Assembly (NCBI RefSeq): GCF_022884085.1
Contig: NZ_JAGGCS010000008.1
Location: 186,001 to 250,000, forward strand
DNA length: 64,000 nucleotides
Reading direction: 5' to 3'
Origin: Paenirhizobium cremeum
GTDB lineage: Bacteria > Pseudomonadota > Alphaproteobacteria > Rhizobiales > Rhizobiaceae
Shown in pieces: positions 40,979 through 60,915 of this stretch (its first letter is position 1; each line of letters opens with the position of its first letter). The notes under the pieces are model-generated. The model did not search any database, had not been told where the DNA came from, and was given only the letters and a program-made list of their open reading frames with translations. Both the position numbers and the translations under genes were made by a program.

Positions 40979-41488
40979 CTATGGCAACCGGGAGAGCCTG
41001 TGTTCGTCATCGATAAGGTTCAGCCTGGAAGGTGCCTTATCGCCCCATTGCCACAGGACCAGATTGAAATCGTCGTCCGTTGCGCCTGGCGCGAAGCTGC
41101 GGACCAGCAGGGCATGATAGCCTGCGGCCGTCGCCTGCCTGGCGAATGCCTGCGTTCTTGCCTCGCCATGGGCTTTCATTTCGTCACGCCAGGTTGAAGC
41201 AGCCAAGGCCGCGGCATCCATTCCGAATGCCGCCAGTTCCGAGGCCTCGCGGCCGTCCAGAACCCTGTCGATCTCGGCGTCATAGGAAACGAGCGTGGTC
41301 GGCTGGAGATTGCCGACCTGGTTCGCTTCCCGCAATGCTGTCATGATGGAGAGCGATGCGTAGAGCGCCTGCATGCCTTTTGGATTGAAGCGTCCACCAT
41401 AGAGTTCCGCGCCGCGGCCTGACAGCGGTTCGCGGGCGTAGATCGGGTTGAGGGCGCGATAGAGCTTGCCGCTAAAGGATAACGGCAT
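40979..41488 (-). CDS. RES-domain toxin (NAD+-depleting family)
   Basis: A 169-residue RES protein. It shows KLYRALNP, ELYGGRFNPKGMQALYASLSIMTALREANQ and later DFNLVLWQWGDKAP; the conserved Arg, Tyr/Phe and Glu of RES toxins lie in the first two blocks. Characterised relatives (MbcT, ParT, Res) destroy NAD+ or ADP-ribosylate a target and are held inactive by the partner antitoxin. The ATG is two bases after the antitoxin stop. Length is normal for the family. Confidence 0.88.
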   Translation of the reverse strand: MPLSFSGKLYRALNPIYAREPLSGRGAELYGGRFNPKGMQALYASLSIMTALREANQVGNLQPTTLVSYDAEIDRVLDGREASELAAFGMDAAALAASTWRDEMKAHGEARTQAFARQATAAGYHALLVRSFAPGATDDDFNLVLWQWGDKAPSRLNLIDDEHRLSRLP

Positions 41489-41490
41489 GG

Positions 41491-41841
41491 TCAGGCGTGA
41501 ACGCCGGCATCGATCGCGTCGATATAGTCGAGTACGTCCTCGGCCCTGCCATTGCGCACAAGCTGCATGGCGGTCTGGCCGGAAAAACCAGGCAGAGGTT
41601 CGGAACGATACCAGGCATACGCCATCAGGGCGGAGCCGAAGCGCGGCTCGACCTTGTTGAGGATCTCGACCATCTCGCGAAGACGACGCTGCGTCCTGTC
41701 CGAACGCACACGATCCTTGCGCTGAACAGCATCCCTGCCCAGCCCTACGGTGCGGGCAACTTCCTCGCTTGTCGTCCGTAGCGTGTCGGCGATCTTCCGT
41801 GGTGCGAACATCCCGTTATCCGAATACTGTGCCAGCCCCAT
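41491..41841 (-). CDS. Xre/MbcA/ParS-type antitoxin
   Basis: A 116-residue antitoxin. The N-terminal half is an Xre-like HTH (KIADTLRTTSEEVARTVGLGRDAV) and the C-terminal half the toxin-binding domain (MVEILNKVEPRFGSALMAYAWYRSEPLPGFSGQTAMQLVRNGRAEDVLDYI, formerly DUF2384). It neutralises the RES toxin encoded two bases downstream and probably represses the operon through the palindrome at 41874-41893. Confidence 0.9.
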   Translation of the reverse strand: MGLAQYSDNGMFAPRKIADTLRTTSEEVARTVGLGRDAVQRKDRVRSDRTQRRLREMVEILNKVEPRFGSALMAYAWYRSEPLPGFSGQTAMQLVRNGRAEDVLDYIDAIDAGVHA

Positions 41842-42856: not shown

Positions 42857-45800
42857 TTACGTCGTGAGATAGGCCGAAATGACCGCTGCAATCTGGTCCG
42901 AGTTCAGATCTCCCATGTGGGAGCCCATGAGTGCGTCCAGCTGAGCATCCGACAGGCCCGCAATGTCTTCGGTGGAGAGACCTGCGAGGCTGGTCGAACT
43001 GAAGGCTGCGATGTCTTCGGTGGAGAAGGTGGCGAGATCTTCCATCTCCAGTGCCGCGACCTGTCCCGAAGTGAGGGCGCCGACCTGGCTCGAAGTCAAC
43101 GCCTCGGCCTGCGCCGTCGACAGCGCTGCGATGACCCCGGTGCTCAGCCCCGAGATGGCCTGAGAGTTGAGGGCGGCGATTTCGCTGGTGGACAAGAGGG
43201 CGATATCGTCGGTGCCGAGGGCCGCCGCCTGCAATGCCGTCAGGGCGGAAAGCTGCGTCATGGAGAGCGAATCAATTTGGTCGGTGCTCATCGCAGCCAC
43301 CTGATTATAGCCCAGCGAAGCTATCTGGCTTGTCGTCAGAACGGCGATCTGGCTTGTGGAGAGGCCGGCAATAATCGCGGTCGACAGACCCTTGATGGCT
43401 GACGAACTGATAACGGCAAGCTCCGCGGTCGAAAAAGTCTCCATGTCTTCAGTGGAAAGACCTGCAAGGCCGTCGGAACTCAGGGCGGCAATCTGATCGG
43501 TGGAGAGGGATTCAAGCTGCTCCGCACTGAGGGCTGCGACCTGCTCGCTGCTCAGGCCATGAATGCCGGCGGTGCCAAGCGAGGCGATATCGTTCGTGGA
43601 CAGCGCCGCGATGATGGCCGTCGAGAGCCCCTTGATCGCCGAGGAACTGATCGCTGCGAGTTCCGCGGTCGAGAAGCTTTCGAAATCCTCAAGCGTAAGG
43701 CCTGCAAGAGCATCCGAACCGAGGGCGGCGATCTGCGTCGGCGAGAGGGCATCCACCTGTTCCGCGCTCAGCGCCGCGACCTGGGCGCTCGTCAGGCCGG
43801 CGATGCCTGCCGCGCTGATGGCAGCGATCTGGCTTGCGGAGAGCGATGCGATGTCGTCCGTGTCCAGCGCCGCGATCTGCTTCGAGCCGAGAGCCGCTAT
43901 CTGCGCGGTCGACAAGGCTTCGATCTGCTCGGAGCTCAGCACGCTGATTTGGCTGGTGGAGAGCCCGGCAATGCCGGCCGCGCTCAGGGCAGCGATCTGG
44001 TCCGGCGTAAAGGCGGCGATGGCCGCCGTCGACAGACCGGACATGGCGGCCGAGCTGATCGCGGCAATGTCGGCGGTCGAGAACATGTCGAGATCATCGG
44101 TACCGAGAGCTGCGATCTGTTTCGAGTTCAGTGCGGCGACCTGCGTGGTGGACAGGGCCTCGACCTGTTCCGGGCTGAGGGCAACGATCTGGCTCGTCGA
44201 GAGCCCGGCAATGCCGGCTGCACTCAGGGCCGCGATCTGAGTGTTGGAGAGCGCGGCAATCGTGCTTGTCGAGAGGCCGGCAATCGCACTCGAGCTGATC
44301 GCCGCGATATCTGCGGTCGAGAACATGTCCAAGTCGTCCACGCTCAGCGCGGCAATCTGGGTCGAGCTCAGCGCGGCAACCTGTGTCGAGGACAGGGCTT
44401 CGACCTGCTCAGGACTGAGCGCTTCCATCTGGCCGATGGAAAGCCCGGCGATGCCGGCCGTGCTGAGTGCCGCGATCTGGCTTGTGGAAAGCGATGCAAT
44501 TCCATCCGTGCCAAGAGCCGCGACCTGTTTCGACGTCAGGGCCGCAAGCTGTGCGGTCGTGAGGGCGTCGATCTGCTCCGGGCTGAGGGCGGCGATCTGG
44601 CTGCTGGAGAGGCCGGAAATGCCTGCGGCGCTCAGCGCCTCCACCTGATCGGCCGAGAGCGAGGCCAGAAGGTCCGTCGACAATCCGACGATGGCGCTGG
44701 AACTGATGGCTGCAATCTCGGCGGTCGTGAACGTGTCCAGATCATCCGTGCCGAGCGCGGCAATCTGGGTCGAACTCAGCACCGCGATCTGGGTTGCGGT
44801 CAGCGCTTCAACCTGTTCCGCGCTGAGGGCAGCGATGTCGTCGGTACTAAGACCCTTGATGCCGGCAGTACTCAGCGCCGCTACCTGCTTGGTGGAGAGC
44901 GCCGCGATATCATCGGTCCCCAGCGCCGCGATTTGCTTGGAACTCAGCGCTGCTATCTGCGTGGTCGACAGGGCCTTGAGCTGCTCAAGGCTCAGCGTTT
45001 CGATCTGGGAGGTAGAGAGCGCCGCGATGCTCGTCGCACTCAGCGCTTCCACCTGATCGGTCGAGAGCGATCCCAGGAGGGTGGCAGACAAGCCGGCAAT
45101 TGCGCTCGAGCTGATCGCCGCGATATCTGCGGTCGAGAACGTCTCGATGTCGTCCGTGCCGAGGGCCGCGATCTGTGCCGAGCTCAAAGCCGAAACCTGA
45201 AGGGACGTCAGGGCCTCGACCTGATCGGTGCTCAGAGCCGCGATCTGATCACTGGAGAGGCCCGCGATACCGGTTGTGCTCAGAGCCGCGATCTGGTCCG
45301 TCGAAAGGGCCGCCAGCAAGGCGGTGGAAAGTCCGAAGATCGTGCTGGAAGCCAGCGCCGCGATGTCCTTGGTGGAGAACATGGCGATATCGTCGGTTCC
45401 AAGCGCTGCAATCTGCGTCGAGCTGAGAACGGCGACCTGCGTGCTTGTCAGGGCCTCGACCTGCTCGGCGCTCAAGGCCGCGATGTCGTCGGTGCCCAGG
45501 GCCTTGATGCCGGCCGTGTTCAGCGCGGCGATCTGGTCGGTGGAGAGGGCGGCAATGTCGTCGGTGGAGAGGGCGGCAACCTGCCGGGAGGTCAGCGCAT
45601 TCACCTGCGCAGTTGACAGGGCGTGGATCTGCCCGGTGTTCAGCGCGTTGATCTGATCCGTCGAAAGGCCGGCGATGCTGGCCGCGCTGAAGGCGGAAAG
45701 CTGGTCGCTCGACAGGCTCGCTATAAGGTCCGTCGACAATCCGGCGATCCCGCTGGAACTGATTGCGGCGATGTCCCTGGTCGAGAAGGTCGCGATATCG

Positions 45801-48800
45801 TCCGTGCCGAGGGCGGCGATCTGGGCGGAACTCAGCGCGCCGATCTGCGCGGTGGAGAGGGCATCGACCTGCGCGGTGCTCAGAGCGTTGATCTGGCTCG
45901 TGGAAAGGCCAGCTACACCGGCAGTGCCGAGAGCCGCAATCTGTGCCGTGGAAAGGGCCGCAATTTCCTCCGTGCTGAAGATCGCGACCTGTCTGGAGGC
46001 GAGCGCCGCGATCTGGGCTGTGCTCATCGCCTTGATCTGATCGCTGTTCAGGGCCTCGATCTGCTTGGTCGTAAGGCCTGCCACACTGGCTGTGCTCAGG
46101 ACGGCGATCTGTTCGGTCGAAAGAGATGCCAGAACAGCGGTGGACAAGCCTGCGATCGCGTTGGCACTGATGGCTGCAATGTCGGCGGTCGAGAAGGTTG
46201 CGATGTCTTCTGAACCGAGCGCTGCAAGCTGGGCGGAGCTGAGGGCGCTGACCTGTGCGGAACTGAGCGCTTCGGCCTGACCGGTGGCCAGGGCTGCAAT
46301 CTGCCTCGTGCTCAGAGCGGCGACGCCTGCGGTAGTCAGCGCATCGATCTGGTCGGTCGAAAGCGCCGCTATCGCACCGGTGGACAGTCCTATGATCGCG
46401 CTCGATCCAATCGCAGCGATGTCCTTGGTCGAGAAGGTGGCGATGTCTTCCGCTTCAAGGACGGCAAGCTGTGCCGAGCCGAAGGCGGCGACCTGCGCCG
46501 AGGTCAATGCCTCGACCTGCGCGGTGCTCATTGCCACGATCTGCTTGGTGGAAAGACCTGCGATGGCCGCTGTGCCGAGGGCCGCGATCTGGTCCGTCGA
46601 GAGCGCGGCGATCTCGTTGGTGCTCAGGGTCGCAAGCTGACCGGAGCTTAAGGCCGCAATCTGCTTGGTAGAAAGGCTGGCAATCTGTTCCTCGCTCAGG
46701 GCCTCGACCTGTTTGGTCGTCAGGCCTGAAATGCCGGCCGTGCTCAAGGCGTTGATCTGGCCGCTCGAAAGGGAGGCAAGGACCGCTGTCGACAACCCTG
46801 CTATCGCCGCGGATGTTATGGCCGCAATCTCGGCCGTCGAGAAGGTCAGGATATCGCCCGTGTCAAGCGCGGCGATCTGGTCGGAATTGAGAGCCGCAAT
46901 CTGCTTGCTGGACAGTGCAGCCATCTGATCGCTGTTCAGGGCGTCGATCTGTCTGGTTGTGAGCCCGGCGATGCCGCCGGTGCCAAGCGCTGCAATCTGG
47001 TCGGTAGAAAGCGCTGCGATGTCATCCGTACCAAGGGCGGCAATCTGCGCCGAGTTGAGCGCGGCGATCTGCGCGGTTGTCAAGATGGCGATCTGTTCGG
47101 GTTCCAGGGCAGCGATCTGCCGCGTGCTCAGGCCCGAGATGCCGGCGGTCCCGAGGGCGGCCAGTTGTTCCGTGGTCAATGCGGTGACATTGCCGGTGTT
47201 CAGCGCCGCGACTTGCGCGGAACTCAGTGCGGCAAGCTGCTTGGTCGACAGAAGGGCGACCTGGTCCGAGCTGAGAGCGTCGATCTGGAGAGTGGTCAGG
47301 CCCTTGATGGCGGCCGTGCTCAGGGCTTCGATCTGTGTGCTGGAAAGAGCGGCGATGATGTTCGTCGACAAACCCGATATTGCGCTCGAGCTTATCGCGG
47401 CGATGTCCGCGGTGGAGAAGGTCGCGATATCGGCGGTCTCCAGCGCCGCCATCTGTGCGGAACTAAGAGCGGCCACCTGGACGGTCGAAAGCGCCTCGAC
47501 CTGTGCGGTCGAAAGGGCGACGATCTGATCCGTGCTCAGGCCCTTGATCGCGTTGGCGCTCAAGGCCGCGATCTGTCGGGTGGTGAGAGCCTCGATGAGG
47601 TTTGCGGAAAGACCCGATACGGCGGTAGAGCTGATGGCTGCGATATCCGCGGTGGAGAAGGTCGCGAGGTCCTCGCTCGCCAGCGCTGCCAGTTGCACGG
47701 AACTCAGTGCGGCGACCTGGGCAGGCGACAGCGCTTCGGCCTGGGCGGTCGACAGGGCTTCGATCTGGTCGGTGCTCAGACCCGTCGCAGCCCTGGTGCT
47801 CAGCGCTGCAATCTGGCTGGTGGACAAGGCCGCGATACCGTCCGTGCCCATGGCCGCGACGTGCTTCGAGCTTAGAGTGGCGATCTGAGACGTCGTCATC
47901 GCGGCTATCTGTTCGGGGGACAGGGCGTCGATCTGGTCGGTCGTCAGGTTTGCGATTGTCGTCGTACTCAAGGCGGCAATCTGGGCGGCGGTGAGGGCCG
48001 CAAGCGCGTCGGTTGCCAGCCCCGCTATCGACTTGTAGCTGATTGCGGCGATTTCCGCGGCCGTGAAAGTCGCCAGATCGTCGGTGCCCAGTGCCGCGAC
48101 TTGCAGCGAACTCAGCGCGGCCACCTGCGTTATGGTGAGCGCTTCGGCCTGCGCGGTGGAAAGGGCTGCGATCTGGTCCGTCGACAGGCTCGCAATGACG
48201 CTTGTGCTGAGCAGGGCAATCTGGTTGGTGGTAAGCGAGACAAGGACGTCCGTGGAGAGACCGGTTATCGCCTTGCTGGTGATGGCCGCGATCTCGGCAA
48301 GTGAGAACGTTGCGATATCGTCGGTCTCCAGCGCGGACAGCTGTAGCGAACCCATCGCCTTCACCTGCGTGACGGTCAGCGCCTCGACCTGTGCGCCGGA
48401 GAGGGCAGCAACCTGATCGGTTGTCAGGTTGGCAATCGTGCTCGTGCTCAGAGCAGCGATTTGCCTGGTGCTGAGCGCCGCGATGTCATCCGTGCCGAGG
48501 GCCTGCATCTGGGACGCCTTGAGGACGCTGATCTGCGTCGTCGTCATGGCGGTCAACTGGTCGACCGACAGTGCCTCGATTTGTGTCACCTTCAAATTGG
48601 CCACGGCGCTCGTGGTGAGCGAGGCGATCTGGCTGGAGGAGAGGGACGCAAGCACGTCGTTTGTCAGGCCCGATATCGCCCTGTTGCTGATTGCCGCGAT
48701 ATCGCCGGTCGAAAACGTCGCTAGGTCGTCCGCTTCCAGCATGGCGATCTGGGCCGAACTCAGGACTTTCACCTGAGCGGTGGAGAGGGCCTCGACCTGC

Positions 48801-49768
48801 GCGGTGGACAGGGCCTCCATATGGCCGGTGGTAAGGCCGGTAATGGCGCTCGTGCTCAGCGCCGCAATCTGGCTGGTCGAGAGGGAGGCGACCTGGCTCG
48901 CTGTCAGGCCCGACAAGGCCTTACTCGTGATGGCAGCGATATCTGCAGTCGAGAATGTCGCCAGATCCTCCGTCCCCAGGACGGCGATCTGGTCGGAGGT
49001 CAAAGTCTTCACCTGTGTGGTGGTAAGAGCCTCGACCTGCGCGGTGGAGAGAGTGTCGATCTGGTCTACAAAAAGCGCCGGGACCGCTTTCGTGCTCAAT
49101 GCCGCAATCTGCGCGGTAGAAAGCGTGGCAATGTCATCGGTTCCCAAGGCCTGGACATGGGCGGCCTTGAGAACGCTGATCTGGGCGGTTGTCAGGGCGG
49201 CGACCTGTGCTGTGGACAGGGCCTCGATCTGGTCGGTCGTCAGGCTTGCCACTGCGCCCGTGCTCAAGGCTGCAATCTGACCTGTCGTAAGGGAGGCCAG
49301 CACGCCCGTTGCAAGGCCGGATATGGCGTTCTGGTTGATCGCCGCGATATCGGCGAGCGAGAATTTGGCGAGATCCTCCACGCCGAGAGCGGCAAGTTGA
49401 GACGCGGTGAGGGCTTTGACTTGCGATGAGGTGAGCGCCTCCGTCTGCACGGTGGTCAAGGCGTCGATCTGCGTGGTGGTGAGGGCTGCGACTTGGCCCG
49501 ATGTCAGGCTCTCGACATCGTATTTGTCCAGAACGGCGAGTTGATCGAGGGTCAAGCCGACGATCGCGTTCTGCGAAATGGCGCTCAACTGCTGGGAGTT
49601 GAGGACATCGACGTCTTCCGTGTCCAAGGCTGCAATCTGTTCGGAGGAAAGCGCGCTCATCTGCCGCGTCGAAAGCAATGCCACGTCTTCCGTAGTCCAG
49701 GCGGCGACTGCAGCAGTTGAAAGAGACCTGATCTGACTGACGCTTAAGGAGGGAATAATCGAGGTCAT
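42857..49768 (-). CDS. Giant 2303-residue octapeptide-repeat protein
   Basis: I do not recognise a named family. The whole protein is one unbroken array of 8-residue units, consensus (S/T/G)(T/S)x(Q/D/E)(I/V/L)x(A/G/T)(L/F/I). Reading it through, 287 octads (the first is MTSIIPSL) are in register, followed by a 7-residue tail ISAYLTT; 287 x 8 + 7 = 2303, so no insertion or deletion breaks phase. Octads group into 10-unit modules opening GTDDIATF-STADIAAI-SSSAIAGL (about 19 F-marked openings) and 7-unit modules opening GTDDIAAL. Glycine-Leu ends mark every third unit before a run of four. There is one Trp, very few Lys, Arg, His or Tyr, no Sec signal and no RTX nonapeptide. Composition is acidic, Ser/Thr about a quarter. 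It follows genes for type I secretion, a GT41 glycosyltransferase and Glf on the same strand. I infer a secreted or surface solenoid; an intracellular role is not excluded. Confidence 0.85.
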   Translation of the reverse strand: MTSIIPSLSVSQIRSLSTAAVAAWTTEDVALLSTRQMSALSSEQIAALDTEDVDVLNSQQLSAISQNAIVGLTLDQLAVLDKYDVESLTSGQVAALTTTQIDALTTVQTEALTSSQVKALTASQLAALGVEDLAKFSLADIAAINQNAISGLATGVLASLTTGQIAALSTGAVASLTTDQIEALSTAQVAALTTAQISVLKAAHVQALGTDDIATLSTAQIAALSTKAVPALFVDQIDTLSTAQVEALTTTQVKTLTSDQIAVLGTEDLATFSTADIAAITSKALSGLTASQVASLSTSQIAALSTSAITGLTTGHMEALSTAQVEALSTAQVKVLSSAQIAMLEADDLATFSTGDIAAISNRAISGLTNDVLASLSSSQIASLTTSAVANLKVTQIEALSVDQLTAMTTTQISVLKASQMQALGTDDIAALSTRQIAALSTSTIANLTTDQVAALSGAQVEALTVTQVKAMGSLQLSALETDDIATFSLAEIAAITSKAITGLSTDVLVSLTTNQIALLSTSVIASLSTDQIAALSTAQAEALTITQVAALSSLQVAALGTDDLATFTAAEIAAISYKSIAGLATDALAALTAAQIAALSTTTIANLTTDQIDALSPEQIAAMTTSQIATLSSKHVAAMGTDGIAALSTSQIAALSTRAATGLSTDQIEALSTAQAEALSPAQVAALSSVQLAALASEDLATFSTADIAAISSTAVSGLSANLIEALTTRQIAALSANAIKGLSTDQIVALSTAQVEALSTVQVAALSSAQMAALETADIATFSTADIAAISSSAISGLSTNIIAALSSTQIEALSTAAIKGLTTLQIDALSSDQVALLSTKQLAALSSAQVAALNTGNVTALTTEQLAALGTAGISGLSTRQIAALEPEQIAILTTAQIAALNSAQIAALGTDDIAALSTDQIAALGTGGIAGLTTRQIDALNSDQMAALSSKQIAALNSDQIAALDTGDILTFSTAEIAAITSAAIAGLSTAVLASLSSGQINALSTAGISGLTTKQVEALSEEQIASLSTKQIAALSSGQLATLSTNEIAALSTDQIAALGTAAIAGLSTKQIVAMSTAQVEALTSAQVAAFGSAQLAVLEAEDIATFSTKDIAAIGSSAIIGLSTGAIAALSTDQIDALTTAGVAALSTRQIAALATGQAEALSSAQVSALSSAQLAALGSEDIATFSTADIAAISANAIAGLSTAVLASLSTEQIAVLSTASVAGLTTKQIEALNSDQIKAMSTAQIAALASRQVAIFSTEEIAALSTAQIAALGTAGVAGLSTSQINALSTAQVDALSTAQIGALSSAQIAALGTDDIATFSTRDIAAISSSGIAGLSTDLIASLSSDQLSAFSAASIAGLSTDQINALNTGQIHALSTAQVNALTSRQVAALSTDDIAALSTDQIAALNTAGIKALGTDDIAALSAEQVEALTSTQVAVLSSTQIAALGTDDIAMFSTKDIAALASSTIFGLSTALLAALSTDQIAALSTTGIAGLSSDQIAALSTDQVEALTSLQVSALSSAQIAALGTDDIETFSTADIAAISSSAIAGLSATLLGSLSTDQVEALSATSIAALSTSQIETLSLEQLKALSTTQIAALSSKQIAALGTDDIAALSTKQVAALSTAGIKGLSTDDIAALSAEQVEALTATQIAVLSSTQIAALGTDDLDTFTTAEIAAISSSAIVGLSTDLLASLSADQVEALSAAGISGLSSSQIAALSPEQIDALTTAQLAALTSKQVAALGTDGIASLSTSQIAALSTAGIAGLSIGQMEALSPEQVEALSSTQVAALSSTQIAALSVDDLDMFSTADIAAISSSAIAGLSTSTIAALSNTQIAALSAAGIAGLSTSQIVALSPEQVEALSTTQVAALNSKQIAALGTDDLDMFSTADIAAISSAAMSGLSTAAIAAFTPDQIAALSAAGIAGLSTSQISVLSSEQIEALSTAQIAALGSKQIAALDTDDIASLSASQIAAISAAGIAGLTSAQVAALSAEQVDALSPTQIAALGSDALAGLTLEDFESFSTAELAAISSSAIKGLSTAIIAALSTNDIASLGTAGIHGLSSEQVAALSAEQLESLSTDQIAALSSDGLAGLSTEDMETFSTAELAVISSSAIKGLSTAIIAGLSTSQIAVLTTSQIASLGYNQVAAMSTDQIDSLSMTQLSALTALQAAALGTDDIALLSTSEIAALNSQAISGLSTGVIAALSTAQAEALTSSQVGALTSGQVAALEMEDLATFSTEDIAAFSSTSLAGLSTEDIAGLSDAQLDALMGSHMGDLNSDQIAAVISAYLTT
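42878..49768 (-). repeat. 24-bp coding tandem repeat array (287 octad units)
   Basis: At DNA level the gene is a 6.9-kb array of diverged 24-bp units, with higher-order periods of 240 bp (10 units) and 168 bp (7 units). Copies differ at many synonymous positions while the peptide pattern holds, so the array is old or selected at protein level rather than a fresh expansion. The period is a multiple of three, hence long open frames on the opposite strand are by-products. Confidence 0.85.
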
Positions 49769-49986: not shown

Positions 49987-53228
<3,242 letters not shown>

Positions 53229-53273
53229 GATCCTGAACATCCCGTACATTGGCGGTCCGATGACCGGCGTTAC

Positions 53274-53452: not shown

Positions 53453-54050
53453 CTACACGTGCGGCATTTCCCGCTCGACAAGATCGAGAACGAACGCGAA
53501 AGCCTGACGGGCACCCTCGACGGCGCGCTCATCCTCTTCCGGTGTCAGCGCGACCGCATCGAGTGCCGAGGTGAAGTTTCGCCAGTGCAGGCCGCGTCCA
53601 TCTGCATGGCCGGCAAGATGGCGCGCACCGTACGCTTCGGAGAGGCCGAGCGTCTTGGTGGCGGTCTTCAACAGGATCGCCGCGCCAAGATTGGAGCCTT
53701 CGACGACATAAAGCCAGCCAAGTGCGGTGGGCACGTCCAGCGGTTCGTCTACCTCTGAAACAGGGCTCGGCAGTTTGCCGGTGATATCTTCGACATCCCT
53801 GCAGACGCGGTCGAGCCGGCGGCGAGAGGCGAGGCCGGGAAGCAGGGCTCCGAGCTGCGGATCGAGATAGAGGCACTCGACCCTGCCGTGGAGAGCATGC
53901 TGGACCTTGAGAAATGCAGCGTAGCGGTCAAGGTTGCCGAAGGGGTCCGCGCTCATGATCCGCTTGTCGAGCGTTTCGTGGGTGGCAATGGGTTCCATTG
54001 CGAAGGCGCAGGGCACGGCTGGGTTCGACAAGGGCGGCTTCAGCACTCAT
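53453..54050 (-). CDS. hemO: Heme oxygenase (PigA/HemO type) with an apparent frameshift near the start
   Basis: The long frame (from GTG 54046 to 53453) encodes a biliverdin-forming heme oxygenase of the PigA/HemO family: ATHETLDKRIM with the proximal heme His, GNLDRYAAFLKVQHALHGRVE, LLPGLASRRRLD, ALGWLYVVEGSNLGAAIL (distal helix) and YGARHLAGHADGRGLHW. It would open heme and release iron after uptake. But the best start is ATG 54050 behind GAGGA with ideal spacing, and that frame reads MSAEAALVEPSRALRLRNGT, which looks like the true N-terminus, before it shifts and stops after 40 codons. Removing one base in 53985-54003 would join the two as LRLRNGTHATHETLDKR. So the gene is either frameshifted, mis-sequenced or started at the odd GTG. 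It follows hasE after 57 bp. Confidence 0.8.
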
Positions 54051-54107
54051 TTAAAATCCTCGAATGTGGGGTTTGTTATCGTTCGATCGGCGGGCGGCGT
54101 GGCTCAG

Positions 54108-55418
54108 TCATTCCTCGCGAAACGCTCTGTTGATCTGATCGCTGATCGGTTTGACGAGATAGGAAAGCGCCGTGCGGTCGCCGGTCTTTATCATCGCTTC
54201 TGCGGGCATCCCCGGCACAAGGGTCAGTCCCCCTAGCTTCTGCATCTCCTCGTGGCTGATGGAGAGACGCACGAGATAGTAGGTCAATCCGCTCTTCTCG
54301 TCGGTCGAAAGATCGGCGGCGACGCGATTGACATGGCCATTGAGTTCGGGCGTGGTCCGCTGGCTGAAGGCGGAAAGACGCAGGACGGCCTTCTGACCGG
54401 GTTGTACCTGATCGATATCCTTTGGCTGTATGCGCACGTCGAGCGCTAGGTCTTCCCCTTTCGGGACGATGAGCATGATCGGTTCACCCGGCGACACGAC
54501 ACCGCCGACGGTATGCACAACGAGTTGGTGCACCGTCCCCGATTGTGGTGCGACGATATCGATGCGCTTCAGCTCGTCCTCGGCTGCCGTCTTGCGCTCG
54601 ATGAATTCACCGATCTGACCCTGGATCTCGCGCAGTTCCTGACTGACTTCCGTCTTGAGATCCTGCTCGATCTGCAGGATCTGCAGCCGGGTTTCAGTGA
54701 TGCGACCCTGCGCCTGGGCCTGATAGGCGATCTTTTCACCACGCTCGCCGCCGAATGTGGCGGCCTGCGTTCGCAGGCTGTTCAGCCGCTGGACCGATAC
54801 GACGCCCCTCTCCTGCAGGGTTTCCTGCGAGACGATCTCGGACTGCAGAACCCTGAGGCCATCGGCATAGGCGATTTCCTGTGCCTTCAGACCCTCGATC
54901 TCATGTTCGTACTGTGCGATGCGTTCGCCAAGTTGGGCCTTCTTGCCGGCACGCGCCTCCCTGCGGAACTCGAACAGCCTCGTCTCGCTGCGGATTGCAG
55001 ATGCCACGTCCGGATTGTCGCGTCGGGCCAGCAACTGGTCGGGAAAATCGATCGCGTCGAGATCGTCGCGTTCGGCTTCAAGGCGCGCCAGACGGGCAGT
55101 CAACTCATCGAGGCGCTTAGTGACGATGGCGAGGCTGGCCCGGGTCTGGGTTGCGTCAAGGCGCATGACGACGTCCCCTGCCCGCACCTGCGCGCCTTCC
55201 TGCACAAGGATTTCTCCAACCACGCCGCCTTTGGGGTGCTGCACTTTCTTCACATAGGAATCGACGACAAACGAACCGGAAGCAACCACGGCGCCGGCGA
55301 GTTCGGTCGTTGCCGCCCACCCGCCGGCCCCACCGACAAGGACAAGGCCGAGCGCCAGCCCAGCCGCCAGGTGGCGGCGGATCGAACGGATGATCTGATT
55401 GTCATCAGCGGCGGCCAT
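54108..55418 (-). CDS. hasE: Type I secretion membrane fusion protein (HasE/PrtE/HlyD family)
   Basis: A 436-residue periplasmic adaptor. A single N-terminal membrane helix (HLAAGLALGLVLVGGAGGWAATTEL) is followed by a split lipoyl/barrel-sandwich domain (VVASGSFVVDSYVKKVQHPKGGVVGEILVQEGAQVRAGDVVMRLD), a long coiled coil (residues about 100-290) and the returning barrel (IVAPQSGTVHQLVVHTVGGVVSPGEPIMLIVPKGEDL). It links the ABC exporter to a TolC-type channel. It overlaps the exporter ATPase gene by 14 bases. Cargo should include the adjacent HasA-like protein; the giant repeat protein is a second candidate. Confidence 0.9.
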   Translation of the reverse strand: MAAADDNQIIRSIRRHLAAGLALGLVLVGGAGGWAATTELAGAVVASGSFVVDSYVKKVQHPKGGVVGEILVQEGAQVRAGDVVMRLDATQTRASLAIVTKRLDELTARLARLEAERDDLDAIDFPDQLLARRDNPDVASAIRSETRLFEFRREARAGKKAQLGERIAQYEHEIEGLKAQEIAYADGLRVLQSEIVSQETLQERGVVSVQRLNSLRTQAATFGGERGEKIAYQAQAQGRITETRLQILQIEQDLKTEVSQELREIQGQIGEFIERKTAAEDELKRIDIVAPQSGTVHQLVVHTVGGVVSPGEPIMLIVPKGEDLALDVRIQPKDIDQVQPGQKAVLRLSAFSQRTTPELNGHVNRVAADLSTDEKSGLTYYLVRLSISHEEMQKLGGLTLVPGMPAEAMIKTGDRTALSYLVKPISDQINRAFREE

Positions 55419-57234
55419 CGGGTTCCTCCTGTTCCTGCCCGGTCGGGGCTTCTTTCGCCGGCACGGGCCGGTTGGCGATCACACGCAGAGGCTTGAGCGC
55501 AGAGCCGGTTGCCGGAAAGCCCTTTGAGGGTGCGGGTGGCGTCTGCAGCACCTTCGCGAATACTTCGTCGCGTGGCCCGAACGCCGTCTGTCGACCGTTT
55601 TCCATCACCAGAACCTGATCGACCACGCCGAGCGCGCTGGGGCGGTGTGCGACCACGATCGCGATGCCGCCGCGGTTACGCACGCCGGCAATCGCCTGCA
55701 CGACGGCGGCCTCGCCATCGGCATCAAGGTTGGCGTTCGGTTCATCGAGAACCACCAGAAAGGGATCGCGGAACAGCGCGCGGGCAAGGCCGATCCGCTG
55801 TCGTTGTCCGGCAGAAAGCGCCGACCCTCCCTCCCCGATGCGGGTCTCGTAGCCGTCATCGAACCGCAGGATGAGTTCCTGGGCACCTGCCGCCTTCGCT
55901 GCGGCGACGATGGCTTCCGGATCAGGTCTTTCCTCGAAGCGGGCGATGTTTTCGGCAATCGTGCCGTCGAAGAGCTCGACCCCCTGCGGCAGGTAGCCGA
56001 TATGCCGTCCAAGCGCCTGCCTATCCCACTGATCGAGGCTTGCGCCGTCGAGGCGAACCTTGCCGGCTGCAGGAGACCATGCGCCGACGAGCGCGCGCGA
56101 CAAGGTGGACTTGCCCGAACCGGAAGGCCCGATAATCCCGAGGGCGCTGCCGGCAATGATGGTGAAACCGACCTGGGCAACTGTCGGCTTGCGCTCGCCG
56201 GGCGGGAGTATGGTGACGGCTTCGACCCGCAACTCCTTCTCCGGCGCGGGCAAGGCGGTTACCGGCGGTTGGTCCGGAACCTTGGACAGCAATTCCTTGA
56301 GCCGAGGCCAGCCTTGCCGGGCCAGAAGAAACGATTTCCAGTTGGCTATGGCGAGATCGACAGGCGCAAGAGCCCGGCCCATCATGACGGAACTGGCGAT
56401 AATGACGCCGCCCGTCGCCTTCTGCTCGACGACCAGCCATGCGCCGACCGCGAGTATCGCCGACTGGAGCATCACACGCATGGCTTTCGACAGTCCGCCC
56501 AAGCCTCCGGCGACATCGCCGGCCCGGCGGTTCGCCGCGAGATAGGCGTTGTTGGCAATGCGCCACCGGGTTGCCATCCGGCCTGCAAGCCCCATGGCGG
56601 CCACCACTTCGGCGTTGCGGCGGGTGCTTTCCAGAAGGGCGTTGCGGGCCATGTTCTGCGCGATAGTTTCGCTCACCCATTTCTGCGACAATGTGTTGGC
56701 AAGGATGGTCAGGAGCACGAGCAGGATTGCGCCGAAAAGCGCCGTCAGGCCGATCCATAGGTGGAAAAGAAAGCAGATGCCGAGATAAAGCGGTATCCAC
56801 GGCAGATCGAAGAAGGCGGTCGGTCCCGTTCCAGACAGGAAGCCCCGCACGCTGTCGAGATCCCGCAAGGGTTGAAGCCCGTCGCCCGGCATGCGGGCGA
56901 GAAGCGGTAACCTGACGACGGCGTCATGGACGCGGCCGGAAAGCTTGTTGTCGAAGTGCTCCCCGATCCGCAGCAAAACCCGCGCCCGAAGGATGTCGAG
57001 CGCTGCCTGGAACAGATAGAGCCCGGCCGCCAGCACGGAGAGACCCACCAGCGTCGGTACGCTGCCGCTCGAAAGCACCCTGTCATAGACCTGCAGCATA
57101 AACAGGGGTGAGGTCAGCGCCAGGATATTGACGACACCACTGATGAGGGCAATCGCAAGAAGCGATTGCCTCAGCGGCGAGACGACCGCCGCTGTCAGGG
57201 ACAGCGGCGGCGCATATGTCGGTTTCCTCAGCAC
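55405..57234 (-). CDS. hasD: Type I secretion ABC exporter (HasD/PrtD family)
   Basis: A 609-residue exporter: transmembrane domain in residues 20-310 (SLLAIALISGVVNILALTSPLFMLQVYDRVLSSGS is the PrtD-type first segment) and an ATPase in residues 340-575 with Walker A IIGPSGSGKSTLSRALVG, signature LSAGQRQRIGLARAL and Walker B FLVVLDEPNANLD. No N-terminal C39 peptidase or C39-like domain is present, as expected for exporters of RTX or HasA substrates recognised by an uncleaved C-terminal signal. It lies 13 bp after the hasA-like gene. An extra proline/glutamate-rich tail of about 30 residues follows the ATPase. Confidence 0.92.
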   Translation of the reverse strand: MLRKPTYAPPLSLTAAVVSPLRQSLLAIALISGVVNILALTSPLFMLQVYDRVLSSGSVPTLVGLSVLAAGLYLFQAALDILRARVLLRIGEHFDNKLSGRVHDAVVRLPLLARMPGDGLQPLRDLDSVRGFLSGTGPTAFFDLPWIPLYLGICFLFHLWIGLTALFGAILLVLLTILANTLSQKWVSETIAQNMARNALLESTRRNAEVVAAMGLAGRMATRWRIANNAYLAANRRAGDVAGGLGGLSKAMRVMLQSAILAVGAWLVVEQKATGGVIIASSVMMGRALAPVDLAIANWKSFLLARQGWPRLKELLSKVPDQPPVTALPAPEKELRVEAVTILPPGERKPTVAQVGFTIIAGSALGIIGPSGSGKSTLSRALVGAWSPAAGKVRLDGASLDQWDRQALGRHIGYLPQGVELFDGTIAENIARFEERPDPEAIVAAAKAAGAQELILRFDDGYETRIGEGGSALSAGQRQRIGLARALFRDPFLVVLDEPNANLDADGEAAVVQAIAGVRNRGGIAIVVAHRPSALGVVDQVLVMENGRQTAFGPRDEVFAKVLQTPPAPSKGFPATGSALKPLRVIANRPVPAKEAPTGQEQEEPDGRR

Positions 57235-57247
57235 GTCCGCGCCGTCA

Positions 57248-57991
57248 TCACGCGGCCAGCGCCGGAGCGAAGATGAAGTCGCTCACGTCGAGAACGCTGG
57301 AACTGACACCGACCAGCGTGATGCCGACGGAAGCGTCTGTCAGCGAGCCGATAACGGCGTCGCCGTTCGTGTCATCGTACCAGTAGATGTCGGCGGTCGA
57401 GGTCACCCCCCATGCCGATACGTCCAGCGTATCCGTTCCGTCCTGATAGCCATAAGTGCCGGCAGGACCTGCCTTGACCGTGTCCACGCCGCCGGAAAAG
57501 ACGAAGGTGTCCGCACCGGAGAAGCCGACGAGAACATTGGAGGCGGCGGTGTCTTCGATAACGGTGCCGACTTCGCCGAGGTAGTCGTAGAAGCTGGAAA
57601 GAGAACCGTTGACCGTCAGATCGTAGATCGCCCAATCGAACGAGTCCTGCCCGGCGCCGGGGATGGTGCTGTCGGGCGTGATGACGAGTTCGGCGGAGAC
57701 GCTGAAGCCGCTGGCGTTGGACTGGCTGAAGCCGCTGCCGAGCGTGATGGTGTCGACCGTACCGGTCAGGTTGCCGCGTGCATACTGGACCTCGCCTTCG
57801 AGGTAGATGCCCTTGCTGCCGGCAGTGCCGTTGCCCCATTGCTCATAGGTCGTGCCAGCCACGGGGTTGGTCACAAGGCCCGCGCCCTCGTCCCAGAACG
57901 CGCCGTAGCTTGTCTGGAAACCGCTGGTCCAACTCGTCAGGTAAGCCTCCAGATTGGAAGAAGCCGAAGTGAGTTCAATGATTGCAGCCAT
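57248..57991 (-). CDS. hasA: HasA-like secreted hemophore with RTX-type C-terminal domain
   Basis: A 247-residue protein without Sec signal. Residues 1-140 resemble HasA hemophores: LEAYLTSWTSGFQTSYGAFW, YEQWGNGTAGSKGIYLEGEVQYARGNLTGTVDTITLGSGF and DWAIYDLTVNGSLSSFYDYL. Tyr70 in VQYA aligns by eye with the heme-ligating Tyr75 of Serratia HasA. There is no histidine anywhere, so His32 and His83 equivalents are absent. Residues about 150-247 (GFSGADTFVFSGGVDTV, DGTDTLDVSAWG, GITLVGVSSSVLDVSDFIF) match the C-terminal secretion region of RTX/serralysin proteins, longer than the 188-residue Serratia protein needs. A good GAGGAG ribosome-binding site precedes the ATG. The neighbours are its receptor and exporter. 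Confidence 0.85.
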   Translation of the reverse strand: MAAIIELTSASSNLEAYLTSWTSGFQTSYGAFWDEGAGLVTNPVAGTTYEQWGNGTAGSKGIYLEGEVQYARGNLTGTVDTITLGSGFSQSNASGFSVSAELVITPDSTIPGAGQDSFDWAIYDLTVNGSLSSFYDYLGEVGTVIEDTAASNVLVGFSGADTFVFSGGVDTVKAGPAGTYGYQDGTDTLDVSAWGVTSTADIYWYDDTNGDAVIGSLTDASVGITLVGVSSSVLDVSDFIFAPALAA

Positions 57992-58047
57992 TTGTCTGCT
58001 CCTCGGATGGGTGTTGCAAAATGCCGGATCTCAGCCCGGACAGTGCT

Positions 58048-58076
58048 CCCCGGGCAAAACCGAAACGGTTTCGGGG
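58048..58076 (-). terminator. Hairpin between hasR and hasA
   Basis: CCCCG-(bulge)-AAACCG, 3-base loop, CGGTTT-CGGGG form a bulged 11-bp stem in the 125-bp gap between the receptor and hemophore genes. In a leftward transcript it lies after the receptor stop and could be a partial terminator or a 5' stabiliser for hasA mRNA. Confidence 0.45.
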
Positions 58077-58116
58077 AGACTGCGTCGCATTGAAAAATCC
58101 TTGCCGGTTTCTTGCA

Positions 58117-60915
58117 TCAGAACCTCATGTTGAGAGACGCCAGGAAGGTTCTTCCCGGCGCGGTGTAGGAACTGGTCGCCGGGATGTAATTGCGGTCCGT
58201 CACATTGTTGACGGCCAGTTTGAGCGTGGCGCTTTCGGTCAGCGCGTAGGAAGCGTAGATATCGGCCACGGTATAGGGATCGGAAATCTCCCTCAGGTTG
58301 CCGTCCTCGTCGAGGCTCCGGCTTTGGGTTGGCGTGACATGCGTCAGGCGACCTCCGATGGAGAGACGAGTTTCGAAGAACCTGAGGCCCGCGTCAAGAG
58401 TGACCTTGAATCTCGGGGCTACGGCACCCGAGGTCGCAAAGACCTCGCCGTCCGTCGTGATCGATCCATTGGAAAAGACCTGTGTCTTTTCGGGCCACTC
58501 CGTATCGAGGAATGTCATGGACCCGCCGAGCCAGAAACGATCGGTGTTGTAGTTTCCTTCTAGTTCGACGCCCCGCATGGTGGTGGTGCCGTCGTAATTG
58601 ACGAAACCATAGTAGCTTCTGTCGGTTACCCCTGGAGTCAGGATGGAGCCGAGGACGATGTAATCATCCACTTCGCGGTAGAAGGCGGCAGCCTTCAGAC
58701 GCAGCGAATCTCCATCCTGCAGAAGGTCGTCCAGCAGAATGTTGGCCCCGATTTCGGCCGTACGCGCCCGTTCCGGCTTCAGCCACTCATTGGGCGCAAA
58801 GACCGTGCCCGGTGCACCGTCACCGGGGGTACCTCCGGAGAAGAAGGTTTCGAGAATGGTCGGCGGACGGAAGCTGTGGGAATATGTGACGAAGGGACGG
58901 AACCAGTCGGCTGGCTTGAACTCGATGCTGGCCGAAGGCAGCCAGGCATCGTCGGTACGGTCTATTTCGACATCGTATGAGGGATAGACTGTCACAGGGT
59001 TGTGCTGGGTTGCGGACGGCCCCGTACCAGCCATGCATCGCGAAGCGAAGCTGTTGGGCCAGAGGACGTTTATGAATATCGCCCGAGGAGGAGGATTACT
59101 GCTGCCAACCGCTATTACGCTATCGTAATACTGTGCCGCGGTGTAATGGTTGGAAAGTGGGTCACAGGGCACTTCTATGACTTCGGTATAAGAATAGCGA
59201 TTGTAATAGGTCGACGTTCCCTTCAGCCGCGACCAGTCATAACGCAGCCCTGCGCGCAAGGTGACCCAGTCCGCCGGCTCCAGCGCCCCGTTGATGAAGA
59301 AGCTTGCCATATCGCGCCGACCGTCCGGGCTGAAGGACGTATAGTTGCTGGCCCAATCGGGATTGAGATCGATGGTCGCGCTCGACGCGCTGGAGGTTGT
59401 TATATCGCGAAAAGCCTCGGCACCGTAATTGACGCTGAGCGCCCCAGCAGGGGTATCGAAGCGACTGGTATTTTCCAGTGAACCGCCGAAACTTTTCATC
59501 CCTGCGTCGATGAAAGTGTCGGGCGTGCCGTTATCTCGTGCCTCCCGCATCTCGTTGTTCATGGCGTCGTTGAACCAGAATCGGCCGGTGAAATCGATCA
59601 GGTCGCTTTCCGGATCCCATTTGAGTTCCGCCGAAACGCTGTCATTGCGCACGTCTTCGAAATTGCGGCTGGTGCCGCCGGACGAACCGTAAAGGAACTC
59701 GTTTTCCTGATGCATCCAGGAAAGGGATGTCTGGACATCTCCGAAATCGCCCTCGAGCTTGACCAGCGACGACCAGCTTTCGCGGCCTAGCTGGTTCCTC
59801 ATCGTTTCTTCCGTCGTCGTCGAATCCCCGTTTGCGCCGATTTCGTATTCGCCGAGCCTGGTGCGACTGTAGCCTCCGGTCACGGAAAACGGTGTATCGC
59901 CAAGGCGGGCTGCTCCGAGGATAGAACCTTGAAAATCATAGGCATTGTCGCCGCGCGCGGCGTTCAGCTCGATGCCCCAGTTCTTGCCGTCTCTGATTAG
60001 ATCATCCGCACCCACCGTGCGGAAATCAACCGAACCGCCGAGCGAACCGACATTGCCCGACGAAGCGTCGGTGCTCTTTTCCACCTCGACCGAACGGATG
60101 AAGGCTGTGTCGACATAGGCCTGCCCCGCATCCGACTGATAGCCGCCGTCGCTTCCACCGAAGCCCAGACCGCGCTGGGCGTTCTGCCGGGCACCGTCGA
60201 TCGAGACCACGACGCGCCCAGCATCCTGGAGACCTCGGATGTTGGGAGATACTGTCGGGAAGCTGCCATTGCCCTCCCCCGCATAGACGCCGGAAATGTT
60301 GTTGAAGAGATCCCGCGTGTTGCGGCCCCCGCTACCCTGGATAGCCTCGCGTGAAACGACGCTGACCGACGCCGGCTCCTGATAGACCCAGTCGGGCGTG
60401 CCCTGATAGCCTGAGCCCGTCGCGACATAGCGTCCGGTCTTTCCGGAAATGACGATCGGCTCAAGGACCGTGTCGTCACCCGTGTCGATCGCACCTGCGC
60501 CGGCATCGTTCGCGGTCTGGGGCGCAGTTATGATGACCGTGCCTTCAGATGTGATGCGATAGGACACACCCGTTCCCTGCGTCAGGCGTGCAAGAGCCTG
60601 TTGGGGTGTGAAGACCCCGACCACCGCGTTCGACCGTAACCCCCTGGGAACCTCTGTTGGAAAGGCCACCTGCAGGCCGGACTGCCGTCCGAATTGCGTT
60701 AGCGCGCCGGTCAGCGGCTGGGCCAGAATATTGAAGGAACGGACGCCAGGCTGTGTCGGGATCTGTGGCTCTGCAGTCTGTGCCAAAGATGTTCCGGCAA
60801 GAAAGACCGGTGCGCCTGTTAGCGCACACACCGCTACGCCGACAAGCAACCGGGCAGTCCCCGATGCCAGCGCCCTGCCCGCCGTCAACCCCTTTACCCT
60901 ACCCCCAATACGCAT
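58117..60915 (-). CDS. hasR: TonB-dependent heme/hemophore receptor with N-terminal STN signalling domain (HasR-like)
   Basis: A 932-residue outer-membrane receptor. A signal peptide (to about residue 46, ending SLAQT) is followed by an STN/secretin domain (residues 58-112: FNILAQPLTGALTQFGRQSGLQVAF, GVFTPQQALARLTQGTGVSY) that passes the signal to the FecR-type protein. The TonB box region and plug come next (PASVSVVSREAIQGSGGRNTRDLFNNISGVYAGEG, PNIRGLQDAGRVVVSIDGARQNAQRG), then a 22-strand barrel. HSFRPPTILETFF with NEWLKPERARTAEIG is the FRAP/NPxL-like heme receptor motif, and the protein ends in the usual aromatic FLASLNMRF. Downstream hasA supports a HasR role. Confidence 0.92.
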   Translation of the reverse strand: MRIGGRVKGLTAGRALASGTARLLVGVAVCALTGAPVFLAGTSLAQTAEPQIPTQPGVRSFNILAQPLTGALTQFGRQSGLQVAFPTEVPRGLRSNAVVGVFTPQQALARLTQGTGVSYRITSEGTVIITAPQTANDAGAGAIDTGDDTVLEPIVISGKTGRYVATGSGYQGTPDWVYQEPASVSVVSREAIQGSGGRNTRDLFNNISGVYAGEGNGSFPTVSPNIRGLQDAGRVVVSIDGARQNAQRGLGFGGSDGGYQSDAGQAYVDTAFIRSVEVEKSTDASSGNVGSLGGSVDFRTVGADDLIRDGKNWGIELNAARGDNAYDFQGSILGAARLGDTPFSVTGGYSRTRLGEYEIGANGDSTTTEETMRNQLGRESWSSLVKLEGDFGDVQTSLSWMHQENEFLYGSSGGTSRNFEDVRNDSVSAELKWDPESDLIDFTGRFWFNDAMNNEMREARDNGTPDTFIDAGMKSFGGSLENTSRFDTPAGALSVNYGAEAFRDITTSSASSATIDLNPDWASNYTSFSPDGRRDMASFFINGALEPADWVTLRAGLRYDWSRLKGTSTYYNRYSYTEVIEVPCDPLSNHYTAAQYYDSVIAVGSSNPPPRAIFINVLWPNSFASRCMAGTGPSATQHNPVTVYPSYDVEIDRTDDAWLPSASIEFKPADWFRPFVTYSHSFRPPTILETFFSGGTPGDGAPGTVFAPNEWLKPERARTAEIGANILLDDLLQDGDSLRLKAAAFYREVDDYIVLGSILTPGVTDRSYYGFVNYDGTTTMRGVELEGNYNTDRFWLGGSMTFLDTEWPEKTQVFSNGSITTDGEVFATSGAVAPRFKVTLDAGLRFFETRLSIGGRLTHVTPTQSRSLDEDGNLREISDPYTVADIYASYALTESATLKLAVNNVTDRNYIPATSSYTAPGRTFLASLNMRF

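Follow-up and report, generated by a model that had tools for sequence, protein, structure and literature searches.

A giant octapeptide-repeat protein of Paenirhizobium cremeum as a candidate secreted, O-glycosylated alpha-solenoid rod

What might a bacterium build from a protein in which a single eight-residue unit is repeated from end to end? The question is raised by an open reading frame (ORF) of Paenirhizobium cremeum that runs from 42857 to 49768 on the minus strand of the stretch analysed here (the window: 64,000 nucleotides of contig NZ_JAGGCS010000008.1, positions 186,001 to 250,000, numbered below from its first letter) and which, read from an ATG start, codes for a giant protein of 2303 amino acids (aa). 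Its repeat register, Pfam membership, pattern of substitution, gene neighbours and octad order together make it probable, in our judgement, though by no means assured, that the product is a secreted, O-glycosylated giant alpha-solenoid rod of the ALTTAQ-repeat family. The octads, the period common to the relatives, the segregation of charge in the Rhizobiaceae-type proteins, the purifying selection and the gene linkage are observed; the solenoid with its alpha fold, the glycosylation, the export and the function are deduced.

An in-register octad protein of the ALTTAQ-repeat family

The length of the protein equals 287 x 8 + 7 residues, in which an octad with the consensus S-T-x-Q-I-x-A-L (STAQIAAL in full) is followed by a 7-residue tail. 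When scored with a profile built from those same 287 octads, this register beats every shift of 1-4 residues in 287 of 287 cases, bearing out the original prediction, made from the letters of the window, of 287 in-register octads without a phase break. Residue identity is 0.388 at a lag of 8 and 0.044-0.106 at the shorter lags of 1-7, while PF20080 (ALTTAQ_rpt), the Pfam model of the repeat, matches 97 stretches of the protein, scoring 1455.5 bits where the curated cut-off is 26.4; because of this excess and these matches, the octad pattern cannot be put down to chance. The same prediction had been unable to name a characterised family. The repeat has in fact been catalogued as PF20080, a 38-residue sequence model, but the statement holds to the extent that no paper bearing the family name was found in the literature searched; nor was any work on the ALTTAQ repeat, or on GT41 enzymes with such repeats, recognised among the papers listed there (most subscription papers and preprints lying outside its scope). 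While the repeat family itself was already known, the 3.385-octad period, the two faces and the linkage to an OGT-like enzyme described below are new.

The regularity extends to each position of the octad. Position 1 is S, T, D, N or G in 269 of the 287 octads, position 5 is I, L, V, M, A or F in 286, and position 8 is L, F, I, M, W or V in all 287. The per-position residue counts, which take in the 7-residue tail as well, are led by S (174), T (51), G (28) and N (12) at position 1, T (156) and S (70) at position 2, Q (154) and D (46) at position 4, I (170), V (59) and L (42) at position 5, A (172) and G (44) at position 7, and L (235), F (24) and I (19) at position 8. Ser and Thr together make up 591 of the 2303 residues, and 8 of the 10 prolines are found at position 2. 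Comparison with relatives revealed cap-like ends that keep the register, contrary to the earlier view that the protein has no unique caps: an N-terminal one of 45 residues (49634-49768, minus strand; containing Trp24), the first ~45 residues beginning MTSIIPSLSVSQIRSLSTAAVAAW, and a C-terminal one of 44 residues (42860-42991, minus strand; closing with ISAYLTT), the last ~44 residues ending SDQIAAVISAYLTT. Both are similar in most relatives, and both are closer to the ends of most of the relatives listed than the octad consensus demands.

So strict a register is not universal, since many of the relatives listed have 1-6 breaks, mostly of 7 or 5 residues. In one octad paralogue (L097:391-3496) 5-residue pieces recur every 133 residues, in another (L158:17366-19696) they are spaced at 133 and 53 residues, and 7-residue pieces are frequent in other octad relatives; such shortened units may be kinks or joints of a rod.

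The octad ORF is under purifying selection. In three relatives, at loci L042, L043 and L152 (the last from Rhizobium sp. ACO-34A), it measures exactly 6912 bp, as it does in the window, with a synonymous divergence (dS) of 1.06-1.07, a non-synonymous divergence (dN) of 0.12-0.13 and a dN/dS ratio of ~0.12. The low ratio and the identical length imply that length, octad count and sequence are all selected. Among these equal-length orthologues, conservation is highest at positions 4 and 8 (0.93-0.94), followed by position 7 (0.83-0.85), and is lowest at position 3 (0.58-0.59).

PF20080-type octads were found in 10 of 21 genomes (the bacterium's own and 20 relatives; E up to 1e-8), and octad proteins in 7 of 299 genomes drawn across the phylum, its own included (E up to 1e-9). 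A search of genome contigs, from which the best 80 of 228 stretches were kept, gave 75 distinct loci, nearly all of them from Rhizobiaceae or Rhizobiales. Octad matches also occurred in 57 plasmid records, among them those of Cereibacter, Thioclava, Rhodovastum, Pseudomonas and Niveispirillum, and phage records yielded none. A separate octad family, referred to here as f45 (11 ORFs at loci L141-L151), is built from octads of which the commonest are of the kind ASTQLDGL and TSTQLAGL; its ORFs reach 5333 aa in the fetched regions, with open frames of up to 5692 aa, and some genomes carry several. A Spiroplasma endosymbiont record (CP117533.1, 15151-15780), from a host well removed from all the others listed, was matched weakly, at 25.7% identity and E 3e-9. 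Caulobacter vibrioides, one of two control genomes with a GT41, was the sole one of 14 control genomes to match PF20080, and no control genome did so at stricter limits. There was also a match to PHROG 15773 (1.5e-10), a family of unknown function. Pfam matches to CAAP1, LRR_EndoS and DUF4351 and an NCBIfam lanthipeptide match were rejected as composition artefacts of a low-complexity repeat.

Linkage to a GT41 glycosyltransferase and possible export

Upstream of the octad gene, on the same strand, lie genes for a UDP-galactopyranose mutase (GLF), a GT41 glycosyltransferase with tetratricopeptide repeats (TPRs), a haem oxygenase, an HlyD-family adaptor, a type I ATP-binding cassette (ABC) transporter, a haemophore-like small protein, a TonB receptor, FecR and an ECF sigma factor. 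The TPR-GT41 protein (51180-53249, minus strand; 689 aa; PF13844, 6.8e-71) is related to the O-GlcNAc transferases human OGT and XcOGT (PDB 7yeh, 4e-78; 2jlb, 7.7e-77), matching both the OGT catalytic core and the TPRs, and we propose it as the modifying enzyme of the octad protein. Two residues of human OGT to which we ascribe a catalytic role, the His in SSDFGNHP and the Lys in FNQLYKID, align with a His and a Lys in the window enzyme. The GLF gene (49987-51297, minus strand; PF03275, 2.1e-77) has an uncertain start codon, and its ORF overlaps the end of the GT41 gene.

This association recurs across genomes. A GT41 gene lies within 3.1 kb of the octad ORF in 46 of the 75 named loci and in 9 of 13 same-genus loci, and GLF within 5 kb in 26 of the 75 and again in 9 of the 13, each time alongside GT41; when the window proteins were compared by BLAST with 100 loci (E 1e-8), GT41 was matched in 56 and GLF in 35. 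In each of the ten octad-positive genomes of the 21-genome set, that of P. cremeum among them, an octad gene has a GT41 gene as its neighbour, and in five (G001, G004, G005, G008 and G009) this is the only GT41 found in the genome. The pairing is also seen in distant bacteria. On plasmid pA of Cereibacter sphaeroides 2.4.1, the octad gene has as neighbours a GT41, an HlyD and an ABC transporter to which the annotation assigns a peptidase domain; in a Pseudomonas sp., GT41 adjoins the octad gene and ABC/HlyD/TolC genes lie ~3 kb away; and in Pseudoroseomonas, where the octad gene is annotated in pieces, there are two GT41s, an HlyD and an ABC transporter whose match to peptidase C39 barely clears the cut-off. 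Rhodovastum has a GT41 near its octad gene, and in R. rhizoryzae the distance is ~4.6 kb from the nearer of two octad ORFs. Tandem octad genes (1574 aa with 2604 or 2550 aa) near a single GT41 were observed at L033 and L034, and a similar pair at L104, which has no GT41 within the flank covered.

Given the gene linkage, the 591 Ser and Thr residues on offer and the TPRs of the enzyme, with which OGTs hold polypeptides, the octad protein is likely to be the acceptor of the OGT-like enzyme; taken alone, we hold this part of the reading with fairly good confidence. The alternative is that GT41 and GLF are part of a pathway for glycosylating polysaccharide or flagellin, and adjoin the octad gene with no functional link to it. 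GLF is usually a polysaccharide enzyme, two genomes of the genus (G010 and G011) have 21 GT41 matches each, and four others (G003, which is 66% complete, G007, G012 and G013) have a GT41 but no octad match at threshold. Several further observations weigh against a dedicated enzyme. In 29 of the 75 named loci there is no GT41 within 3.1 kb, 6 of these 29 having a flank of 3.5 kb or less (two such misses, L094 and L101, appear to be the same contigs as L033 and L034, where other flanks show GT41). No GT41 adjoins the second octad locus in G001, G004, G005 or G009, and none was present in the Thioclava and Shinella HZN7 regions fetched or in the flanks covered of the 11 f45 loci (some flanks being one-sided), where a scan of 10 neighbouring ORFs from 7 loci found no glycosyltransferase or type I secretion protein. 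When common neighbours were sought among 44 loci without GT41, no cluster extended over more than 5 loci. Set against chance adjacency, however, are the pairing in all ten octad-positive genomes, with a sole GT41 in half of them, and the fact that the adjacent GT41s in the 75 loci are 64-89% identical to that of the window, whereas five further-off GT41s in the same loci are only 35-38% identical. The pairing is moreover kept though relative strand varies (37 same, 9 opposite), and recurs in Rhodobacterales, Rhodospirillales and Pseudomonas. We regard an unlinked neighbourhood as improbable.

The arrangement recalls HMW1 and HMW1C of Haemophilus influenzae, in which a giant exported protein has its own GT41 gene, an adjacency that holds here in the window and in the 46 loci. 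HMW1C is a GT41 enzyme that acts in the cytoplasm on the giant exported adhesin HMW1 (PMC3983070); it has no TPR fold and forms N-linked carbohydrate bonds, and HMW1 is exported by two-partner secretion. The window enzyme differs in that it contains TPRs and finds its nearest matches in human OGT and XcOGT, that to the HMW1C-like structure 3q3e being only 5.4e-5. A Pfam scan of 20 window ORFs, to which the search was confined, found no TpsB-type protein. On our reading a dedicated OGT-like enzyme in the cytoplasm would add sugar to some of the 591 Ser and Thr residues. Since enzymes of this type are cytoplasmic, the sugar would be attached before export, in the way that HMW1C modifies HMW1 (PMC3983070). 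GLF may point to galactofuranose as the sugar, though it may instead serve a polysaccharide. The octad protein is in this respect a natural substrate candidate for bacterial OGT-like enzymes, the targets of which are, to our knowledge, mostly unknown.

In Cereibacter, Pseudomonas and Pseudoroseomonas the neighbourhood of the octad gene and its GT41 also contains type I secretion genes, and a similar C-terminal end recurs even behind a non-octad, unrelated linker (in the Shinella and Agrobacterium types), making the C-terminal 44 residues a possible export signal. These three distant loci and the recurring end suggest type I secretion as the export route; within the window, the HlyD-family adaptor (54108-55418, minus strand; PF13437, 3.7e-18) and the type I ABC transporter (55405-57234, minus strand; PF00005 and PF00664) are possible exporters of the rod. 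It counts against this assignment that the window type I system looks like part of a haem-uptake cluster, leaving the exporter in the window uncertain. In the BLAST comparison with 100 loci, HlyD and the TonB receptor were matched in one each and the haem oxygenase and the haemophore-like 247-aa protein in none; the ABC protein had matches in 26, at 26-40% identity, as expected for unrelated ABC proteins. The octad protein could instead be an intracellular scaffold or spacer, in keeping with the lack of secretion genes recognised beside most Rhizobiaceae copies and with an N-terminus in which no signal peptide was visible by eye (inspection only, no predictor). Type I substrates, however, need no N-terminal signal, and the secretion genes of the three distant lineages and the recurring C-terminal end likewise argue for a protein that leaves the cell. 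An intracellular role therefore seems unlikely to us, whereas export, taken alone, we consider probable; the product would be exported, by type I secretion in several lineages, as a surface or matrix glycoprotein.

A period of 3.385 octads and the fold it may report

Whereas the original prediction described a single uniform repeat, the octads carry overlying 7-, 10-, 17- and 27-octad super-repeats. Mean identity between octads is ~2.9-3.3 of 8 residues for lags 1-59 outside the peaks, being flat over lags 1-6, and reaches 3.3-4.5 of 8 at lags of 7, 10, 17, 20, 24, 27, 34, 37, 44, 51 and 54 octads. As these lags all lie near multiples of ~3.385, they point to a single period of 3.385 octads (27.1 residues). 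The four strongest spectral peaks of the octad series, summed over all residue types and positions, are at 0.2955, 0.4095, 0.114 and 0.1815 per octad, and one frequency covers all four: taking 0.2955 as the fundamental, its second, third and fourth harmonics fold back to 0.409, 0.114 and 0.182. The spectral power observed was 8.3, compared with a maximum of 2.47 in 50 shuffles of octad order. The super-repeats occupy octads 17 to 281 (43025-49384, minus strand), where 'DDIATF'-type octads, at 17, 34, 44, 61, 71, 88, 98, 122, 139, 149, 166, 183, 193, 210, 227, 237, 254, 264 and 281, are spaced by 10, 17 and, once, 24 octads; of the 24 octads that end in Phe, 19 belong to this set, octads 137, 158, 170, 240 and 282 being excluded as another type. 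The pattern suggests that the character of an octad depends on its angle along a helix of 3.385 octads (27.1 residues) per turn. A sequence period of this kind could report the number of units per turn, if period and turn are equated as we infer, and a solenoid of about 3.4 octads per turn would account for it.

The period is shared by relatives. In a pool of 97 ORFs (the window's and those of at least 90 octads from L029-L116, 25,103 octads in all), the best frequency within 0.286-0.304 had a median of 0.2954 (range 0.287-0.304), corresponding to a period of 3.385, and the band held a top-three peak in 94 ORFs and the strongest peak in 55. Eight plasmid ORFs (from Cereibacter, Rhodovastum, Pseudomonas, Thioclava, Pseudoroseomonas, R. 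rhizoryzae and Shinella) were also tested: in seven the best in-band period was 3.378-3.425, with none of 300 permutations reaching the value, and in the eighth, a run of only 26 octads, it was 3.306 (11 of 300 permutations). For the 11 f45 ORFs the in-band period was 3.367-3.442, and 0, 0, 7, 8, 3, 3, 0, 0, 55, 9 and 0 of 300 permutations reached the value. The in-band peak was the strongest over the whole range in 4 of the 8 plasmid ORFs and 8 of the 11 f45 ORFs. Some f45 proteins show, in addition, a strong 2-octad alternation atop the 3.4-octad period. In 11 of 12 proteins the top eight lags lie on average 0.15-0.38 octads off a multiple of 3.39 (a value chosen after the window data had been seen), where chance would nominally give 0.85. 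Only L097, at 1.01, departs from this: its repeat of 133 residues consists of 16 octads and a single 5-residue piece, which counted as units makes 17, or five turns.

Could the super-repeats be a mere record of past 10-, 17- and 27-octad block duplications, without structural meaning, the octad being the sole structural unit? Duplications did occur: codon identity given the same amino acid is 0.459-0.489 at lags 10, 17 and 27, and 0.449-0.489 when lag 44 is included, above the 0.405-0.409 expected, so that duplication supplies part of the super-repeat signal. The pattern is also shared among relatives through descent. Rhodovastum and Pseudomonas peak at 7, 10, 17, 27, 34 and 44, like the window protein, with only Cereibacter and f45 clearly differing in their super-repeats, and the periods given for f45 and the plasmid ORFs are the highest values within a band fixed beforehand (0.285-0.305), all of which tells against a structural origin of the period. 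Yet about the same quotient is found where the super-repeats differ, as in Cereibacter (peaks at the even lags 14, 20, 24, 34, 44, 48, 54 and 58) and in f45 L142 (10, 14, 20, 24, 34, 41, 44 and 48, with no lag-17 peak). The excess in codon identity is small, implying that most blocks are old, and still the amino-acid pattern persists at a dN/dS of 0.12 between species; the 17-unit count of the L097 paralogue points the same way. We consider duplication without structural meaning unlikely.

At this period, charge and glycine fall on different sides of the would-be helix. In the window protein, Gly at position 7 lies at 109 degrees (R 0.86), small residues at position 4 at 109 and basic residues at position 3 at 113, whereas acidic residues at positions 3, 6 and 4 lie at 263, 277 and 299 degrees, and Phe/Ile/Met at position 8 at 315. 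The angle between basic and acidic vectors has a median of 166 degrees and exceeds 90 in all 95 ORFs with 15 or more basic residues; that between Gly at position 7 and acidic residues has a median of 172 degrees and exceeds 90 in 92 of 97. These ORFs are kin, and thus not 95 independent events. Charge segregation is in this way clear for the Rhizobiaceae-type proteins. The f45 proteins follow in part, in that the angle between basic and acidic residues exceeds 90 degrees in all but one of the 11 and the basic vector is strong in several (R up to 0.77); to be held against a general rule is that the acidic vector is negligible in 6 of the 11 (R 0.02-0.11).

Helix-capping statistics and the closest sequence match in the PDB favour an alpha fold. 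In the 97-ORF pool, position 1 is a helix N-cap residue (S/T/D/N/G) in 93.9% of the 25,103 octads, 1328 of 1839 prolines are at position 2, in the first helical turn, D and E are mostly at positions 3, 4 and 6, and position 5 is I/L/V/M in 94.0% and position 8 L/I/F/M/V in 99.5%. The pattern L8-S1-x-x-Q4-I5 reads as the capping box and hydrophobic staple of helix starts. The only strong PDB sequence match is 9zem (HeliScrew4), at E 1.2e-17 by sequence and 1.5e-25 by profile, which aligns without gaps over 108-111 residues and consists of the same kind of octad (e.g. TPEQIAAL); compared here by sequence and name alone, it is a 120-residue protein and, judging by its name, a design. Leucine-rich repeats share a regular Leu spacing, but the window unit has 8 residues and these matches (E 0.0014 and above) are far weaker than 9zem. 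Neither of the contrary outcomes that the original prediction had named, disorder or a known family with another fold, was encountered: the regularity of the hydrophobic positions argues against disorder (no disorder predictor was applied), and the PDB matches other than 9zem are much weaker and largely to leucine-rich repeats. Its picture of a continuous solenoid with a Leu/Ile core and Ser/Thr capping turns is supported by the residues at positions 1, 5 and 8, by Pro at position 2 and by the single helical period. The idea that each octad forms one rung is not supported; the data fit ~3.4 octads per turn, so that an octad would be one side of a turn.

Some findings pull the other way. The case for an alpha fold rests on general helix-capping rules, and capping is weaker in f45, with N-cap residues at position 1 in 62.6% and only 47 of 111 prolines at position 2. 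Models with an ideal backbone and a helix at positions 2-7 gave 92 clash-free compact coils with 3.33-3.45 octads per turn and a rise of <4.5 A per octad. Every one of them was left-handed within the grid used, and those that ranked highest by burial of positions 5 and 8 had a radius of ~7 A with position 4 buried too. A wider random scan, however, allows compact solenoids of 2.2-7.4 octads per turn and of either hand (369 left-handed, 242 right-handed); the 3.30-3.48 bin gives the best hydrophobic burial, though only narrowly (0.58 vs 0.54 and 0.55 in the adjoining bins), and conservation fits better at 3.8-4.3 octads per turn (0.46 vs 0.29). The backbone models thus permit a solenoid of 3.4 octads per turn without proving it. 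An earlier backbone model, with an N-cap kink and residue 8 varied in or near the helical region, was set aside: 223 of 972 settings were clash-free, as screws of 2.7-5.0 octads per turn, and the 36 settings near 3.385 were all left-handed and stretched (~8.4-9.7 A per octad), with a radius of ~1.4-3.4 A that was judged to leave no room for a core.

A beta-solenoid of the ice-nucleation-protein or haemagglutinin type is highly improbable: although ice-nucleation proteins, too, have octapeptide-based repeats (PMC6400192) and Cereibacter homologues are annotated 'ICE nucleation protein' and 'heme utilization protein', these product names look automatic, a stack of beta coils would be expected to hold a whole number of octads in each coil, such as 3, where lag 3 is flat, the consensus, STAQIAAL, departs from the ice-nucleation motif (no such protein being compared), N-cap residues occupy position 1 and Pro position 2, and the best solved match, HeliScrew4, is helical by name. 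The alpha-solenoid, taken alone, is the part of the reading that we regard as very likely.

In such a solenoid each octad would form one short helix, with Ser/Thr at position 1 capping its start, Gln/Asp/Glu at position 4 completing the capping box, and Ile5, Ala7 and Leu8 facing the core. At ~3.39 octads (27 residues) per turn, 287 octads would make about 85 turns, and a coil pitch of 8-10.5 A would give a rod about 70-90 nm long. The identity of an octad would follow its angle round the rod, with one acidic side and an opposite side rich in Gly or small and basic residues, and two-faced rods of this kind might pack side by side or bind a surface. The 7- and 10-octad (and 17-, 27- and 44-octad) super-repeats would be whole-number approximations of 3.385 octads per turn, keeping the acidic stripe and the basic/glycine stripe straight along the rod, much as the heptads and hendecads of coiled coils approximate 3.6 residues per turn. 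Taken to its end, this leads to a picture that we put forward only tentatively, and think rather less likely than not to hold in full, of glycoprotein rods whose tertiary structure is written in the order of their octads, which are sugar-coated before export by a dedicated OGT and, their stripes held straight, zip together outside the cell. An uncharacterised Pfam repeat in this way becomes something that can be tested, namely an alpha rod with a twist that might be readable from its sequence alone. If the picture is true, the heptad principle would recur at a higher level, with entire super-repeats specifying a stripe along a solenoid, and plant-associated bacteria would provide protein fibres that are long, glycosylated and open to design.

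Neighbouring genes of the octad locus

The genes that adjoin the octad/GT41 module at 53453-62718 on the minus strand, from haem oxygenase, HlyD and type I ABC transporter through the 247-aa protein to TonB receptor, FecR and ECF sigma factor, look like a haem-acquisition cluster. The 247-aa protein (57248-57991) had no Pfam or PDB match, and its resemblance to the haemophore HasA is presumed from context. Just downstream of the octad gene, at 40979-41841 on the minus strand, a RES-domain protein and an Xre/MbcA/ParS antitoxin are encoded, which their families mark as a toxin-antitoxin pair. The order of the FAA-hydrolase-like, Xre, RES and PfkB genes beside the octad gene is the same at L042, L043 and L152.

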